A DNA stretch of 51,236 nucleotides. It comes from Salinisphaera orenii subsp. halophila YIM 95161. Its GTDB lineage: Bacteria; Pseudomonadota; Gammaproteobacteria; Nevskiales; Salinisphaeraceae. The stretch lies in contig NZ_AYKF01000073.1 in NCBI RefSeq assembly GCF_003732545.1, positions 1-51,236 on the forward strand. Direction: 5' to 3'. The notes beneath the pieces are model-generated. The model made no database searches and was not told the origin of the DNA. It saw only the letters and a list, made by a program, of their open reading frames with translations. Shown one piece after another: positions 1,245 through 51,071 of this stretch. Position 1 is the first letter of the stretch. Every line of letters begins with the position of its first letter. The translations under genes were made by a program, and so were the position numbers.

Positions 1245-1845
1245 GTCTCCACTATAACTCGAACCCGGCCGTTTGGATGCACCCTCGGAACGGCGTCGCA
1301 GTCGCCGCCGATGCGCGGCCGGAGTTGCCGGCGAGGCCGGCCGTGGACGCTCTCTCGGCAGCTCAAGCCACGCGCCGGGCGCACCCGGATGCGCAACGGC
1401 GGCGAGCCTGCCCGCTTCGCCTTGGCGCGCAGGCCGAGGCGGCCACAACGCCGATGCGCAGCGAAGTCCGTTACCCGACTGCTTCGCCAAGCGACCGGCC
1501 TTCCGATGGCCCCGGTCGGGCGACGAGCCACAGCCTGATGGCAACGGCCTACGAACAGGTCGCCGGCCGACAACGGCACCGCTCGTACGCAAGGTCGCCG
1601 GTCGCCGGTCGCCGGTCGCCGGTCGCCGCACGATCGAAGTAGCTTTGATACGAACACGCGTGCAGATATCGCGCAGTTTCGGGCCCGCGTCATGCGCCGG
1701 CAGACCGCGACACGGGACTGCGCACGCCCGCGCCCCGAGCGTGCGACCGTCGCCCGGACGACCGCCACGGGCTCGGCGCCCCGGCCCCGTGTTCGCTAGA
1801 ATGGCGCGTTCGACGCGGCCTGTCGCCGCCGCCGGGGAGATACGC
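1245..1845. other. Gene-poor gap with candidate -10 for the TRAP genes
   Basis: About 600 bases lie between the divergent lipoprotein and dctQ genes. Long open frames exist on both strands, but they are low-complexity Arg/Ala/Gly/Pro translations with no recognisable domain, as expected from GC-rich non-coding DNA. The gap contains a heptamer tandem repeat (1593-1627). Near its right end, TAGAAT at 1797-1802 could be the -10 element of dctQ; I see no convincing -35. GGGGAG lies a few bases before the dctQ ATG. Confidence 0.5.
1593..1627. repeat. Five tandem copies of GGTCGCC
   Basis: Five exact head-to-tail copies of the heptamer GGTCGCC occupy 1593-1627 in the gap before dctQ. The unit is not a multiple of three and lies outside any credible gene. 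Such a run can change length by replication slippage. No protein-coding role is apparent. Confidence 0.9.
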
Positions 1846-5723: not shown

Positions 5724-6529
5724 GGGCGAGTCGGGCCGAAGGCGAGTAAAACGCGTCAAGGATAACCCATCCACGTCCGGACTCGAATCAAGCAACGACG
5801 ATCGCCGCGCCTATCCAGTGCCGGCTCGCACCGAGCGGTCGGCCGCCATGCGGCCACCGCACCGTCGACGTCGAACCGACAGGGCCGCCTCGGCGTCGAC
5901 ACGAAAGCGCGAGCCGCGCCAATCCGCTCCGACCAAGCCTGCGCTGAACTCTGGAGTGCCCCGCCACATCACCGACCCAGGACTGCCCCTCGGGACGCCC
6001 ATCGGTCATGGCCCGCGCCGCTGATCGGATGACACGTCCGCGTGACCGACTGCGCCGTCGTGACGGACCGGAAAAGATGACGCGGGAAACGCGGGATCGA
6101 CGAATGACTCACCCGCCCACCCGGCGGCCACGGCGGGGGCCACCCGACCTCCGTCGCTTTTCGGCGAATGCCCGACGCGAACCCGTCAGCGCGCCGATCC
6201 GGCCTCGCCCCCGAGAAACCGCCCATTCCGTCACCCGGCAACGCCCACGCCCGCGTCGGGCCCGATGCCGCTGACATCGACCCGGCGCCGTCGAGCGCAC
6301 GAAGCGATGGCCCCGCGTGACGAGACGCCCTACCCAGATCGGGCGATCGCACGCCACCGGGAACGCAGGCATGCGGGCTCGGACAGACTCGGGCAGCACG
6401 ACGGGGGGAAACCGGGGCGTCGCTCGACTATTCCACAGGAAGCGATCACCGCCCCGAAGATCCGCCGGAATCGACCGACGCCGGACAATACGACGGTCCG
6501 AGCAGCGAGACGTCATGCCTGCGCCCATG
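5724..6529. other. Large gene-free gap
   Basis: Roughly 800 bases without a credible gene. Open frames on both strands translate into Arg/Pro/Ala-rich sequence without domains, initiation sites or hydrophobic periodicity. No RNA gene, repeat shared with other gaps, or transposase remnant was recognised. The gap ends at the terminator of the BCCT transporter gene. Confidence 0.5.
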
Positions 6530-6570
6530 AAAAAGGCCCGGCACCGCAGAAGCAGTGCCGGGCCCGTTTT
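6530..6570 (-). terminator. Intrinsic terminator of the BCCT transporter gene
   Basis: A perfect 10-bp stem (GGCCCGGCAC at 6535-6544 with GTGCCGGGCC at 6555-6564) and a 10-base loop. On the minus strand it is followed by five U residues (A run at 6530-6534). It lies just after the stop of the BCCT gene. The plus strand also has CGTTTT after the stem, so it may work in both directions. Confidence 0.88.
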
Positions 6571-6579
6571 CGGGACGGA

Positions 6580-8577
6580 CTATCGGACCAGGTAGAGGAA
6601 GTGCAGGTGCTTCTCGTACTGGTCGAGAATATCGCCGATCAGCTGCTCCCGGGAGTAGCCGACCACGTTGTACTGCTGGCCGCCCTCGCGCAGGAAGACC
6701 TCGGCACGGTAGTGCTCGCGGCCCTTGGCGCTGCCCGGCGGCTCGCCCTTGAGCGCGCCCATGTAGAACGACGGCGCGGTGAACCGGCGTGCCCGCACGC
6801 CGTAGACGAAGTCGATCTCGGCACCGTGCTCCACCCGGAGGTAGCAGCGGTCCTCCTCGCAGTTGATCTGGGTCGCCATCTCGCTTTCCTCGAACTGCTT
6901 GGCGACCTCCTGCATCGCCGGCTCGACGGTCTCCTTGAGGAAGCTGTCGATCTGCGTCCGACGCGGCGAGGACACCAGCGTCTTGAGACGCTGCTCCCAG
7001 CCGCCGGCGCCGAAGCCGGCCACGTTGTAGGGCGTGTTCATCACGCTGCGCATGCTGTCCTGCTTGATCGCCTCGACGCTCAGCGACTTGTACAGGCAGT
7101 AGGCCATGATCAGGATGATGACGGTGATCGGCAGCGCCGAGGCCAGCGATGCCGCCTGGAGCGCGCCGATGCCGCCGGCGACCAGCAGCACGATCGCCAC
7201 GACACCCTCGAGCACGGCCCAGAAGATCCGCTGCCAGACCGGCGGCTCGCTGCCGTCCTTGGCGGTGAGGATGTCGATGACCAGGGAACCGGAGTCCGAG
7301 GAGGTCACGAAGAACGTCACCACCAGAATCGTGCCGAGAACCGACGTCAGCCAGGTCAGCGGGAACTGCTCGAGGAAGTAGAACAGCGCCGTGGACGTGC
7401 TGTCGTTGACGGCATCGACCAGATCGGTGGCACCATCGGCCATGATCATGTGAAGCGCCGTATCGCCGAAGGCGGTCAGCCAGAGGAAGGTGGCGCCCAC
7501 CGGCACGATCAGCACGCCGAGCACGAACTCGCGGATGGTCCGGCCGCGCGAGACCCGCGCGACGAACATGCCGACGAACGGCGACCAGGAGATCCACCAT
7601 GCCCAGTAGAACAGGGTCCAGCCGCTCATGAAGCTATCGGTGTCCTCGTCGCCCGTATAGGCGTACGAGTTGAACGTCATGTCGACGATGCTCGAGAAAT
7701 AGTTGCCGATGTTCTGCGACAGCGACTGGAAGATGAACAGGGTCGGGCCCAGCACCAGCACGAACAGCAGCAGCGCCGCGGCGAGCCAGAGGTTGAGCTC
7801 GGAAATACGGCGGATACCGCCGTCCAGGCCCAGCACCACCGAAAGCGTCGCCATGGCGGTGATGATCGCGATCAGTACGATCTGCGTGGTGATGCCTTCC
7901 GGCACGTCGAAGACGAAATTCAGGCCGGAGTTGACCTGCTGCGCGCCGAGGCCCAGCGACGTGGCCACGCCGAACAGGGTACCGAACACCGCCAGCACGT
8001 CCACCGCGTGGCCGATGGGACCGTAGATGCGGTTGCCGATCAGCGGATAGAAGGCGGAACTCAGACGCAGCGGCAGGTTGCGGCGGAAACTGAAGTAGGC
8101 CAGACACAGGCCGACGACGGCATAGACCGACCAGGCGTGCATACCCCAGTGGAAGAAGGTCAGCCGCATGGAGTCGCGCGCGGCCATTGCCGTCGACGCG
8201 TCCCCGGTGGGCGGGTTGTCGTAGTGCAGCACCGGCTCGGCCACGCCGTAGAACATCAGCCCGATGCCCATGCCGGCCGAGAACAGCATCGCGAACCACG
8301 ACAGATAGCTGAAATCCGGCTCGCTGTGATCCGGTCCCAGCCGGAACTGCCCGTAGCGCGAGGCCGCCAGCACGATGCAGAAGATCAGGTAGACGCCGAC
8401 GGCGGACAGATACAGCCAGCCGAAGGTCTCGATCAGCCAGCTCTGCATGCCGCTGAAAAACGAATTGGCCACGTCCGGCATCGCCGCGCCGAACACGACC
8501 AATATGCCGATTACGATCACGGACGGGTAGAACACCGGCGGGTTGATACCCGCCTTCGTCGGCTGGTCGTCACTCAT
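6580..8577 (-). CDS. betT: BCCT family transporter, BetT-like (choline/glycine betaine uptake)
   Basis: This encodes a 665-residue secondary transporter. The N-terminal 500 or so residues hold twelve membrane helices with the BCCT signatures GMGIGLMFYG (102-111) and the tryptophan motif WWISWSPF (327-334). The hydrophilic C-terminal tail of about 150 residues matches the long-tailed BetT subgroup, in which the tail takes part in osmotic sensing. BetT proteins import choline, and some import betaine, using proton or sodium gradients. No choline oxidation genes (betA/betB) are nearby, and the same window encodes betaine synthesis from glycine, so betaine itself is an equally likely substrate. 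It is monocistronic, ending at a strong terminator. Confidence 0.88.
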   Translation of the reverse strand: MSDDQPTKAGINPPVFYPSVIVIGILVVFGAAMPDVANSFFSGMQSWLIETFGWLYLSAVGVYLIFCIVLAASRYGQFRLGPDHSEPDFSYLSWFAMLFSAGMGIGLMFYGVAEPVLHYDNPPTGDASTAMAARDSMRLTFFHWGMHAWSVYAVVGLCLAYFSFRRNLPLRLSSAFYPLIGNRIYGPIGHAVDVLAVFGTLFGVATSLGLGAQQVNSGLNFVFDVPEGITTQIVLIAIITAMATLSVVLGLDGGIRRISELNLWLAAALLLFVLVLGPTLFIFQSLSQNIGNYFSSIVDMTFNSYAYTGDEDTDSFMSGWTLFYWAWWISWSPFVGMFVARVSRGRTIREFVLGVLIVPVGATFLWLTAFGDTALHMIMADGATDLVDAVNDSTSTALFYFLEQFPLTWLTSVLGTILVVTFFVTSSDSGSLVIDILTAKDGSEPPVWQRIFWAVLEGVVAIVLLVAGGIGALQAASLASALPITVIILIMAYCLYKSLSVEAIKQDSMRSVMNTPYNVAGFGAGGWEQRLKTLVSSPRRTQIDSFLKETVEPAMQEVAKQFEESEMATQINCEEDRCYLRVEHGAEIDFVYGVRARRFTAPSFYMGALKGEPPGSAKGREHYRAEVFLREGGQQYNVVGYSREQLIGDILDQYEKHLHFLYLVR

Positions 8578-48347: not shown

Positions 48348-48383
48348 ATGAATGAACGCCCCGATATGAATGAACGCCCCGAT
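48348..48383 (+). repeat. 18-bp tandem duplication containing the start codon
   Basis: The 18-mer ATGAATGAACGCCCCGAT occurs twice with no gap (48348-48365 and 48366-48383). It duplicates the first six codons, so the protein begins MNERPDMNERPD. Either ATG could be the start. Confidence 0.95.
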
Positions 48384-49103
48384 ACCGCGCTGCCCGGCTG
48401 GGCCTGGCTCGGGCTGCCGCTGGTCATCTACTTCAGCCATTATCTGGCACGCGCGCTGCTGGACTTCGCGGTCTACGACCGCTGGGTCCTGCACGAATCG
48501 GGGATCACCGAAAAAGCCACCCTGGTGATGCAGGCGCTGGCACTGGTCGGCGGCCTCCTGGCGACACGCTGGGCCTGGCGCCAGGGCGACCGCAAGCTCG
48601 TCGCCTTCTTTCTGGTCTTTTGCCTCGGCTGTGTGTATTTCGGCGGCGAGGAAGCCAGCTGGGGCCAGCACATGGCCGGCTGGTCGGCGCCCGAGGAGTG
48701 GGCCGAGGTCAACGACCAGGCCGAGACCAACCTGCACAACACCAGCGGAATCGCCGGAACGCTGCTCGATCAGCTGCCCCGCAACCTGCTCGCGATCGCC
48801 ATGCTGGTCGGCGGCGCCATCCTGCCGCTCGTGCGGCGCGCACGGGGCCTTCGCCACTCGCTGCACTCATTCCGGGGGCTGATCATGCCCGGCTTCGAAT
48901 GCGTGGCGATCGGCTTCATCGCCCCGCTGGCCTCCATTCCCGAAAAGATTCTCAAGGCCGTCGCCGGCACGGTGCCCGCGCCGCTCGAGATCGAGGCCGG
49001 GGAAGTCAAGGAATTGATGTTCGCGGTCTTTCTGGCGATGTACATCGCCGGCGTGCTCGTGCGCATGCGCCGTGCCGGCGCGGCGGCCCCGTCGCCGCAC
49101 TGA
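48348..49103 (+). CDS. Multi-pass membrane protein of unknown function
   Basis: This encodes a 251-residue protein with about six hydrophobic segments (around 17-45, 57-75, 83-100, 143-160, 183-200, 222-240). Between helices 3 and 4 is a conserved-looking polar block, YFGGEEASWGQHMAGW followed by NDQAETNLHN; similar GEE-SWGQ...NLHN motifs occur in uncharacterised bacterial membrane proteins. The acidic and His residues could bind a metal (inference). The N-terminal six residues are tandemly duplicated. It is convergent with the candidate sRNA gene. Confidence 0.8.
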   Translation: MNERPDMNERPDTALPGWAWLGLPLVIYFSHYLARALLDFAVYDRWVLHESGITEKATLVMQALALVGGLLATRWAWRQGDRKLVAFFLVFCLGCVYFGGEEASWGQHMAGWSAPEEWAEVNDQAETNLHNTSGIAGTLLDQLPRNLLAIAMLVGGAILPLVRRARGLRHSLHSFRGLIMPGFECVAIGFIAPLASIPEKILKAVAGTVPAPLEIEAGEVKELMFAVFLAMYIAGVLVRMRRAGAAAPSPH

Positions 49104-49147: not shown

Positions 49148-49324
49148 AAAAAGAAGCCCGGATCGGGAGGGCAACCGATCCGGGCCAGGGGGCGGACGTC
49201 GCCAGGGGGAGAACGACGCCCTGATCCACGCAGCGGCATGACTCGGGTAGGATGCGCGCTGCGTATTGCAGATCGGTGAGGGGGAGACACCGTCTCTGCG
49301 ACAGCGGGGTGACCCCGCTGCGTG
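49148..49324 (-). ncRNA. Candidate small RNA with repeated C-rich hairpin loops
   Basis: On the minus strand a promoter (49360-49331) is followed by about 177 bases and an intrinsic terminator, with no credible reading frame. Hairpins in order: A, 49320-49302 (8-bp perfect stem, 3-base loop); B, 49299-49268 (CGGTG/CACCG plus GCAGA/TCTGC, loop TCTCCCCCT); C, 49264-49228 (12 bp with one bulge, loop CCTACCCGAGTC); D, 49221-49194 (7 of 8 pairs, loop TTCTCCCCCTGG); terminator, 49185-49156 (11-bp stem) followed by TTCTTTTT. The same C-rich nonamer is shown in two loops, and CCCCCT recurs between D and the terminator. Such loops could pair with purine-rich ribosome-binding sites. No known RNA family was recognised. 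Confidence 0.55.
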
Positions 49325-49330
49325 ATGTGA

Positions 49331-49360
49331 ACTATAGGCGTACCGTATCGACTCTGCCAA
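49331..49360 (-). promoter_or_regulatory. Sigma-70 promoter for the candidate sRNA
   Basis: On the minus strand, TTGGCA (49360-49355), an 18-base spacer and TATAGT (49336-49331) closely match sigma-70 -35 and -10 elements. The predicted start is near 49324. The stretch is AT-rich relative to its surroundings. Confidence 0.6.
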
Positions 49361-49371
49361 TTGAGTTTCTA

Positions 49372-49402
49372 TTGCCTATGGATAGCGCTGTACTATACAG
49401 CG
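49372..49402 (+). promoter_or_regulatory. Candidate prfC promoter with 7-3-7 palindrome
   Basis: TTGCCT (49372-49377), a 16-base spacer and TATACA (49394-49399) could drive prfC, giving a start near 49406. A perfect inverted repeat, CGCTGTA and TACAGCG separated by CTA (49386-49402), covers the -10 box, so a repressor could act here. This promoter diverges from the sRNA promoter. Confidence 0.5.

Positions 49403-49460: not shown

Positions 49461-51071
<1,611 letters not shown>

Follow-up and report, generated by a model that had tools for sequence, protein, structure and literature searches.

The window, i.e. the whole stretch of 51,236 nucleotides that was analysed, carries the gene prfC for peptide chain release factor 3 at 49461..51071 on the plus strand (NCBIfam TIGR00503, 805 bits against a cut-off of 467), a gene detected in 58 of 61 genomes. 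At 48348..49103, also on the plus strand, lies a membrane-protein-like ORF with no Pfam match. Between the two, at 49148..49325 on the minus strand, the fold and a covariance model place a predicted small RNA (sRNA) of about 178 nt, which is divergent to prfC and convergent with the membrane-protein-like ORF.

A sigma-70-type promoter precedes the sRNA at 49331..49360 on the minus strand, with TTGGCA at 49360..49355, an 18-base spacer and TATAGT at 49336..49331. The sequence-only reading had proposed this near-consensus promoter, and the combination TTGGCA-18-TATAGT proved to be the only promoter-like site between 49.8 and 48.7 kb (mean of 0.3 in shuffles). Its conservation was followed in 12 rows, namely the window and 11 relatives (L013 was omitted, as it ends short of the promoter). 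The -10 element reads TATANT in all 12 rows, with 87% identity and constant spacing, and the AATT overlapping the -35 is 100% identical; the -35 hexamer itself is only 66% identical, with TTAGCC, TTATGA and TTGGTC among its variants, and the spacer 39%. The promoter thus stands in the window and its -10 is kept in relatives, but TTGGCA as such is not. At the other end, an intrinsic terminator covers 49148..49186 on the minus strand, its stem (49186..49155) counting 12 pairs by the tool used, against the 11 first proposed, and being followed by TTCTTTTT.

A conserved palindrome-like element, ATAGTACAGCGCTAT (of the ATAGTGCARCACTAT type), was found at 49382..49396, in the interval that separates the promoter of the sRNA from that of prfC. 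The region around it (columns 99-116) is 90% identical, compared with 49-51% on its flanks. The element has no other exact match in the genome, and allowing one mismatch adds three matches, vs. two for the control. By eye, it overlaps a possible -10 of prfC, TATACA on the plus strand, and it may represent an operator or the -10 region of prfC.

The predicted fold of 49325..49148 consists of four hairpins, A to D, plus the terminator hairpin, as had been proposed, and reaches -92.5 kcal/mol. None of 200 shuffled sequences is as stable (-64.2 ± 4.3 kcal/mol; z = -6.56), and each of the five hairpins folded singly gives z values of -2.4 to -5.3. Hairpin A (49301..49321, minus strand) has no C-rich loop. 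The C-rich loops reported earlier for the next three hairpins were all recovered: hairpin B (49268..49299, minus strand) exposes UCUCCCCCU at 49287..49279, hairpin C (49228..49264, minus strand) CCUACCCGAG, and hairpin D (49194..49221, minus strand) CUCCCCCU at 49211..49204. A further C-rich loop, missed by the sequence-only reading, is that of the terminator hairpin, UUGCCCUC at 49174..49167 on the minus strand, with CCGA following it in the stem. As for the extra CCCCCT noted ahead of the terminator, it is present in the window and in its twin G012 and in no other relative, within a D-terminator linker that is 41% identical among relatives.

Thirteen distinct sequences were aligned with MAFFT on sequence alone, and a structure was derived from that alignment with RNAalifold. 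In the resulting 47-pair structure, 96.6% of the cells are paired. Changes on both sides of a pair occur in 16 of the 47 pairs, vs. 8.9 ± 1.7 in shuffles, none of which (0/500) was as high, although these counts are not probabilities since the 13 sequences are kin. Sliding the partner by one to three columns lowers the pairing to 33-52%, keeping in mind that a structure taken from an alignment will usually outdo its own slid versions on it. Covariation is found mostly in helices D (7 of its 10 pairs), C (4 of 7) and A (3 of 8), with 2 of 12 pairs in the terminator and none in B, whose inner stem is invariant. Many G-U pairs are formed on the minus strand; since the plus strand would have A-C in their place, it is the minus strand that reads as the RNA.

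The loops are conserved in a graded manner. Identity amounts to 78% in loop B, 67% in loop C, 77% in loop D and 90% in the terminator loop, while the linkers are at 24-45% and the loop of hairpin A, which is not C-rich, at 36%. Stems are 64-68% identical, apart from the terminator stem at 93% and the inner stem of B at 100%. In loops B and D, what is kept is the run of C rather than the exact loop sequence, the edges varying among relatives (CGCCCCCT, TTCCCCCG, CTCCCCCT); loop C reads ACCCGA in 12 of the 13 sequences and CCCCGA in L013. The sequence-only reading had made its case depend on stems and loops being maintained among relatives, and both are in these 13 sequences. Taken together, the segment 49325..49148 of the minus strand almost certainly encodes a structured, conserved RNA.

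Concerning its distribution, a DNA search of 61 genomes found the sRNA in all 14 Salinisphaera genomes, the present one included, and in none of the 47 others; a 241-base query gave no match in the plasmid and phage collections. A covariance model, R1, was built from 13 of the 14 genus sequences, G012 being left out because over the query it does not differ from the window. Searched against 100 genomes, R1 retrieved the 14 genus genomes at 141-197 bits (13 of these sequences having built the model) and, outside the genus, two of the three remaining family members, with scores of 57.3 and 52.6 bits. Wherever both were found, the sRNA adjoins prfC: this holds for 12 genus genomes and for the two family genomes (g2). 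In G007 and G011, where the sRNA sits near the end of a contig or on a short one, no prfC match passed the cut-off applied. In the g2 genomes, the stem sequences are quite different, and the loops in L066 read TTTTCCCCC and CACCCCCT. By eye, the sequence upstream of prfC shows no such RNA in L065, from the remaining family genome, nor in 15 further members of the order (L068-L082), and R1 gave nothing above 16.6 bits in these regions.

Weaker R1 matches were also obtained: 20.6-28.5 bits only in six further genomes, an extra one in each of four genus genomes (at most 37.1 bits, L110), and one of 18.2 bits in the present genome (L085). On reading and folding, L104, L106, L110, L112 and L085 appeared by eye to be gene ends with GC-rich terminators and were rejected, and L113 is antisense inside a true match. 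In G020, from another family of the same order, L105 (25.4 bits) shows around 1501..1603 a short hairpin with a ACCCCUCCC-like loop and, after it, a terminator rich in GC; this may be a further small C-rich RNA.

With respect to described RNAs, the sequence-only reading had stated that the sRNA matches no known family, and a search of the whole window against Rfam at gathering cut-offs indeed returned no match. At a permissive threshold, the window sRNA matches ar14 (RF02344) at 33.7 bits (E = 1.7e-4; gathering cut-off 58.8) and sX13 (RF02232) at 21.4 bits (E = 0.093; gathering cut-off 50). Among 15 loci, ar14 matches were found in six, the window's included, at 33-41 bits (best relative 41.2), and sX13 matches in none.

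According to PMC3771888, sX13 adjoins polA, acts through three C-rich loops on G-rich motifs near translation starts, both the loops and the motifs having been shown to be necessary, and is described as exclusive to the Xanthomonadaceae. It resembles the window sRNA in being intergenic and gammaproteobacterial and in its rigid hairpins with C-rich loops, UCCCCCU being its loop 3 (PMC3771888); apical C-rich loops on stable stems are likewise present in the predicted fold of the window sRNA. The two differ in that the Rfam model of sX13 has 115 positions and three stems and its place is polA, vs. five hairpins, terminator included, beside prfC. NfeR1, on which ar14 was founded, repeats one and the same anti-SD motif in its three hairpins; these motifs are redundant and sit on divergent stems, and the mRNAs of two ABC transporters are its confirmed targets (PMC10746234). 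Repeated, conserved C-rich motifs on diverged stems are thus common to ar14/NfeR1 and the window sRNA. However, the former carries CCUCCUCCC in three loops, whereas the latter has CCCCC, ACCCGAG and GCCCUCCC, the nearest to CCUCCUCCC being CCCUCCC in the terminator hairpin; besides, the hosts of ar14 are Alphaproteobacteria and Salinisphaera is gammaproteobacterial. Finally, NmsRA and NmsRB of Neisseria, tandem siblings with conserved UC-rich anti-SD regions, one of them in a loop (PMC5362039), differ from the window sRNA in place and hairpin number, a distinction made from their description rather than from sequence.

The place that sX13 occupies beside polA is taken, in Salinisphaera, by other RNAs. 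In the present genome, three tandem sX13-like units lie directly after polA, which was identified by NCBIfam TIGR00593 (L045, 6109..6647, minus strand, contig C110 of G000); they score 38.0, 35.0 and 33.7 bits against RF02232 (cut-off 50). A model of such units, R2, built from 12 copies, found three to six copies in the loci of each of 12 other genus genomes (13 loci: L015-L022, L025, L028, L030, L046 and L047, with L016 and L047 representing the same place). In 11 of these 12 genomes the array is flanked by the end of polA, which the L025 locus does not reach; the RF02232 search gave no match in G011, and one copy follows polA in an f2 genome (L048). By their place, the polA-linked units are probable counterparts of sX13, and as tandem siblings they recall NmsRA/NmsRB (PMC5362039). 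They share with the window sRNA the genome, CCCCC loops and terminators of their own, but are about 110 nt long, have three hairpins, occur in three to six tandem copies and lie elsewhere; moreover, the window sRNA lacks the sequence of their first hairpin, CCCGCTTTTCTCCCTGAGCGG, which all 12 aligned copies share without change. Below cut-off, the L045 copies also match anti-hemB of Burkholderia (34-36 bits) and 6C RNA (26-34 bits), so that, to a covariance model, RNAs with C-rich loops resemble one another even across distant groups.

These data bear on the reading of the prfC-linked RNA as a diverged sX13 or ar14 itself. The full-length, weak ar14 and sX13 matches speak for such an orthology, as does the cross-matching of the two models: R1 scores 32.4, 22.5 and 20.7 bits on the three polA copies of the present genome (which the whole-genome R1 search omitted, its first pass losing weak matches) and R2 scores 27.9 bits on the window sRNA. 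Every score against the two Rfam families is nevertheless below the curated cut-offs, and the polA place reported for sX13 (PMC3771888) is held by the three better matches of 34-38 bits. Furthermore, plain gene-end terminators reach 37.1 bits with R1 (L110, by eye) and 23.2 bits with R2, the latter at 6525..6616 of the window, a match rejected as the end and terminator of a 665-aa ORF (a transporter by eye); E-values of both models are therefore too optimistic and cross-matches of 20-33 bits weigh little. By score and by place, the window sRNA is neither sX13 nor ar14, and filing it under either was rejected, since it falls short of both cut-offs and does not lie at polA. We consider orthology unlikely, while a common descent of the prfC-linked RNA and the polA array is possible from their sequences. 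A literature search combining Salinisphaera with sRNA turned up one paper, unrelated to the window sRNA. The earlier description of this RNA as undescribed thus holds, by Rfam and literature search, for the RNA itself but not for its kind: the window sRNA is new, and the C-rich-loop, anti-ribosome-binding-site kind is known from other bacteria (sX13, ar14/NfeR1).

The features expected of a trans-acting sRNA with C-rich loops are found in the window: a free-standing intergenic unit with promoter, hairpins and terminator, covarying stems (stem B alone showing no covariation) and conserved C-rich loops. On this comparative evidence, the prfC-linked RNA is very probably a genuine regulatory sRNA of the salt-loving bacterium Salinisphaera, and covarying stems and kept C-rich loops make a regulatory sRNA with redundant C/U-rich seed loops, as first proposed, the best reading. 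Its anatomy, being that of sX13 and NfeR1/ar14, suggests by analogy that it works like them, and we hold it likely that it acts in trans, its C-rich loops pairing with G-rich ribosome-binding sites and blocking translation. Under this model, a family-wide Salinisphaera sRNA of about 178 nt would be transcribed from its own promoter to its own terminator, away from prfC; rigid hairpins would keep three or four C-rich stretches single-stranded (CCCCC or CCCC in B and D, ACCC in C, GCCCUCCC in the terminator); these would pair with G-rich stretches, AGGGGG and alike, at or near ribosome-binding sites, so that ribosome entry would be blocked; and the several loops would be interchangeable. The unit, the fold, the covariation, the kept loops and the kept -10 are read directly in the sequences; from them we infer that the sRNA is expressed, that its loops would bind mRNAs and repress their translation, and which mRNAs these might be.

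A real RNA could also serve as a protein sponge or a ribonucleoprotein scaffold, its C-rich loops binding protein rather than mRNA. Short, strongly conserved loops on covarying stems would suit this role, and Hfq is encoded in the genome. GGA is the motif of CsrA/RsmA, and it is present neither in loops B, C and D nor in the terminator loop of the window. The variation of the loop edges among relatives would fit loose base-pairing better than a single protein motif, and Hfq is dispensable for the action of sX13 (PMC3771888); a protein-binding role therefore seems improbable to us. Less probable still, and indeed very unlikely, is a cis element (leader, attenuator or 3' element) of prfC or of the convergent gene. 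Linkage to prfC in every genome in which both were found would agree with it, yet transcription runs away from prfC and ends ahead of the convergent ORF. In addition, the nearest convergent ORF changes among the 14 genus loci, being membrane-protein-like in six and an acylphosphatase in eight, and the RNA stays. A cis element of prfC in particular was rejected on the direction and the transcript's own ends. A gene for a small protein, or hairpins arisen by chance from a high GC content, can hardly account for the locus: open frames do cross the region, as is typical of GC-rich DNA, and a GTG within stem B opens one in many relatives, but single-base length changes in loop B break any shared frame and no start-stop pair common to the aligned relatives was found, so that the protein-coding reading was rejected and the first statement of no credible ORF holds, while the covariation above 500 of 500 shuffles and the fold stability noted above speak against chance.

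Returning to a trans-acting sRNA, its candidate targets were sought by the AGGGGG that the shared C-run calls for, in the pattern AGGGGGA-N4-9-ATG, which occurs 24 times in the present genome vs. four times for the reversed pattern. In two sister species the excess is small (14 vs. 6 in G008, 9 vs. 3 in G009). AGGAGGA is likewise more frequent than its reverse (37 vs. 8), so that the excess of AGGGGGA needs no sRNA and shows at most that the motif serves as a ribosome-binding site. Seventeen of the 24 places precede an ORF of at least 80 aa, shorter ones having been dropped (7/24 here, 7/30 in the AGGAGGA control, of whose 37 places 30 had loci, 2/14 in G008 and 2/9 in G009). In the 17 candidates, loop B or D can pair without interruption over 7-11 bases, an outcome that the pattern itself largely dictates.

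Uptake proteins make up 10 of these 17 candidates, vs. 3 of 23 AGGAGGA controls (Fisher p = 0.005), and envelope proteins at large 13/17 vs. 6/23 (p = 0.003), in an exploratory classification assigned from Pfam with the groups known, the counts of which later Pfam searches left as they were; four ORFs without a Pfam match (L229 here, the control L260, counted as uptake, and L279 and L287 of G009) were classed by eye from the N-terminus, and the control is not clean, since at least two of its ORFs (L238 and L255) begin inside a gene, their Pfam match starting mid-profile. According to Pfam, the uptake candidates are three periplasmic binding proteins (UrtA-like and LivK-like, both names by eye, and DctP), four TonB-dependent receptors, two sodium/alanine symporters and a short-chain fatty acid transporter; the others include Csy3, LrgB and an aminotransferase. 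In the sister species, uptake genes account for 1 of 12 candidates (G008) and 2 of 7 (G009), and pooling all three species gives 13/36 vs. 3/23 for uptake (p = 0.07), a bias that is then no longer clear, and 21/36 for the envelope (p = 0.018). A TonB receptor carrying the motif is found both here (L223) and in G009 (L280), the two being 71% identical, and no match was found between the 17 candidate ORFs and the 12 of G008. A nutrient-uptake regulon of the prfC-linked sRNA is a lead.

As for hfq, no GGGG was found within 45 bases on either side of its start in the 11 genus genomes checked (G011-G013 lying outside the check); this proven sX13 target is therefore not shared in the genomes checked, and hfq finds no support as a common target. 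Two single candidates may be recorded. The gene of the type I-F protein Csy3 (PF09615; L219, contig C74 of G000, around 1616) has a ribosome-binding site with a 10-base match to loop D, and an sRNA-CRISPR link through Csy3 is possible on that match. In G009, AGGGGGA precedes a PilM gene (L285, PF11104); in Xanthomonas, genes of type IV pili are repressed by sX13 (PMC3771888).

A wider reading, which we offer tentatively and regard as rather doubtful, is that of a C-loop regulon with two sites. The prfC-linked RNA, offering as many as four C-rich loops, and the three to six polA-linked sX13-like RNAs would jointly form a brake, set by dosage, on mRNAs with AGGGGG ribosome-binding sites, in this species mainly those of nutrient-uptake genes, and the prfC RNA would tie this brake to translation-termination capacity via the shared prfC promoter region. 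What the analysis adds to Salinisphaera, a genus for which no related sRNA literature was found, is a well-supported sRNA at the level of the family. It also brings to light two sets of C-rich-loop RNAs in one genome, offering much the same seed, so that redundancy, a division of targets by loop context, or copying to tune the dose can be put to the test.
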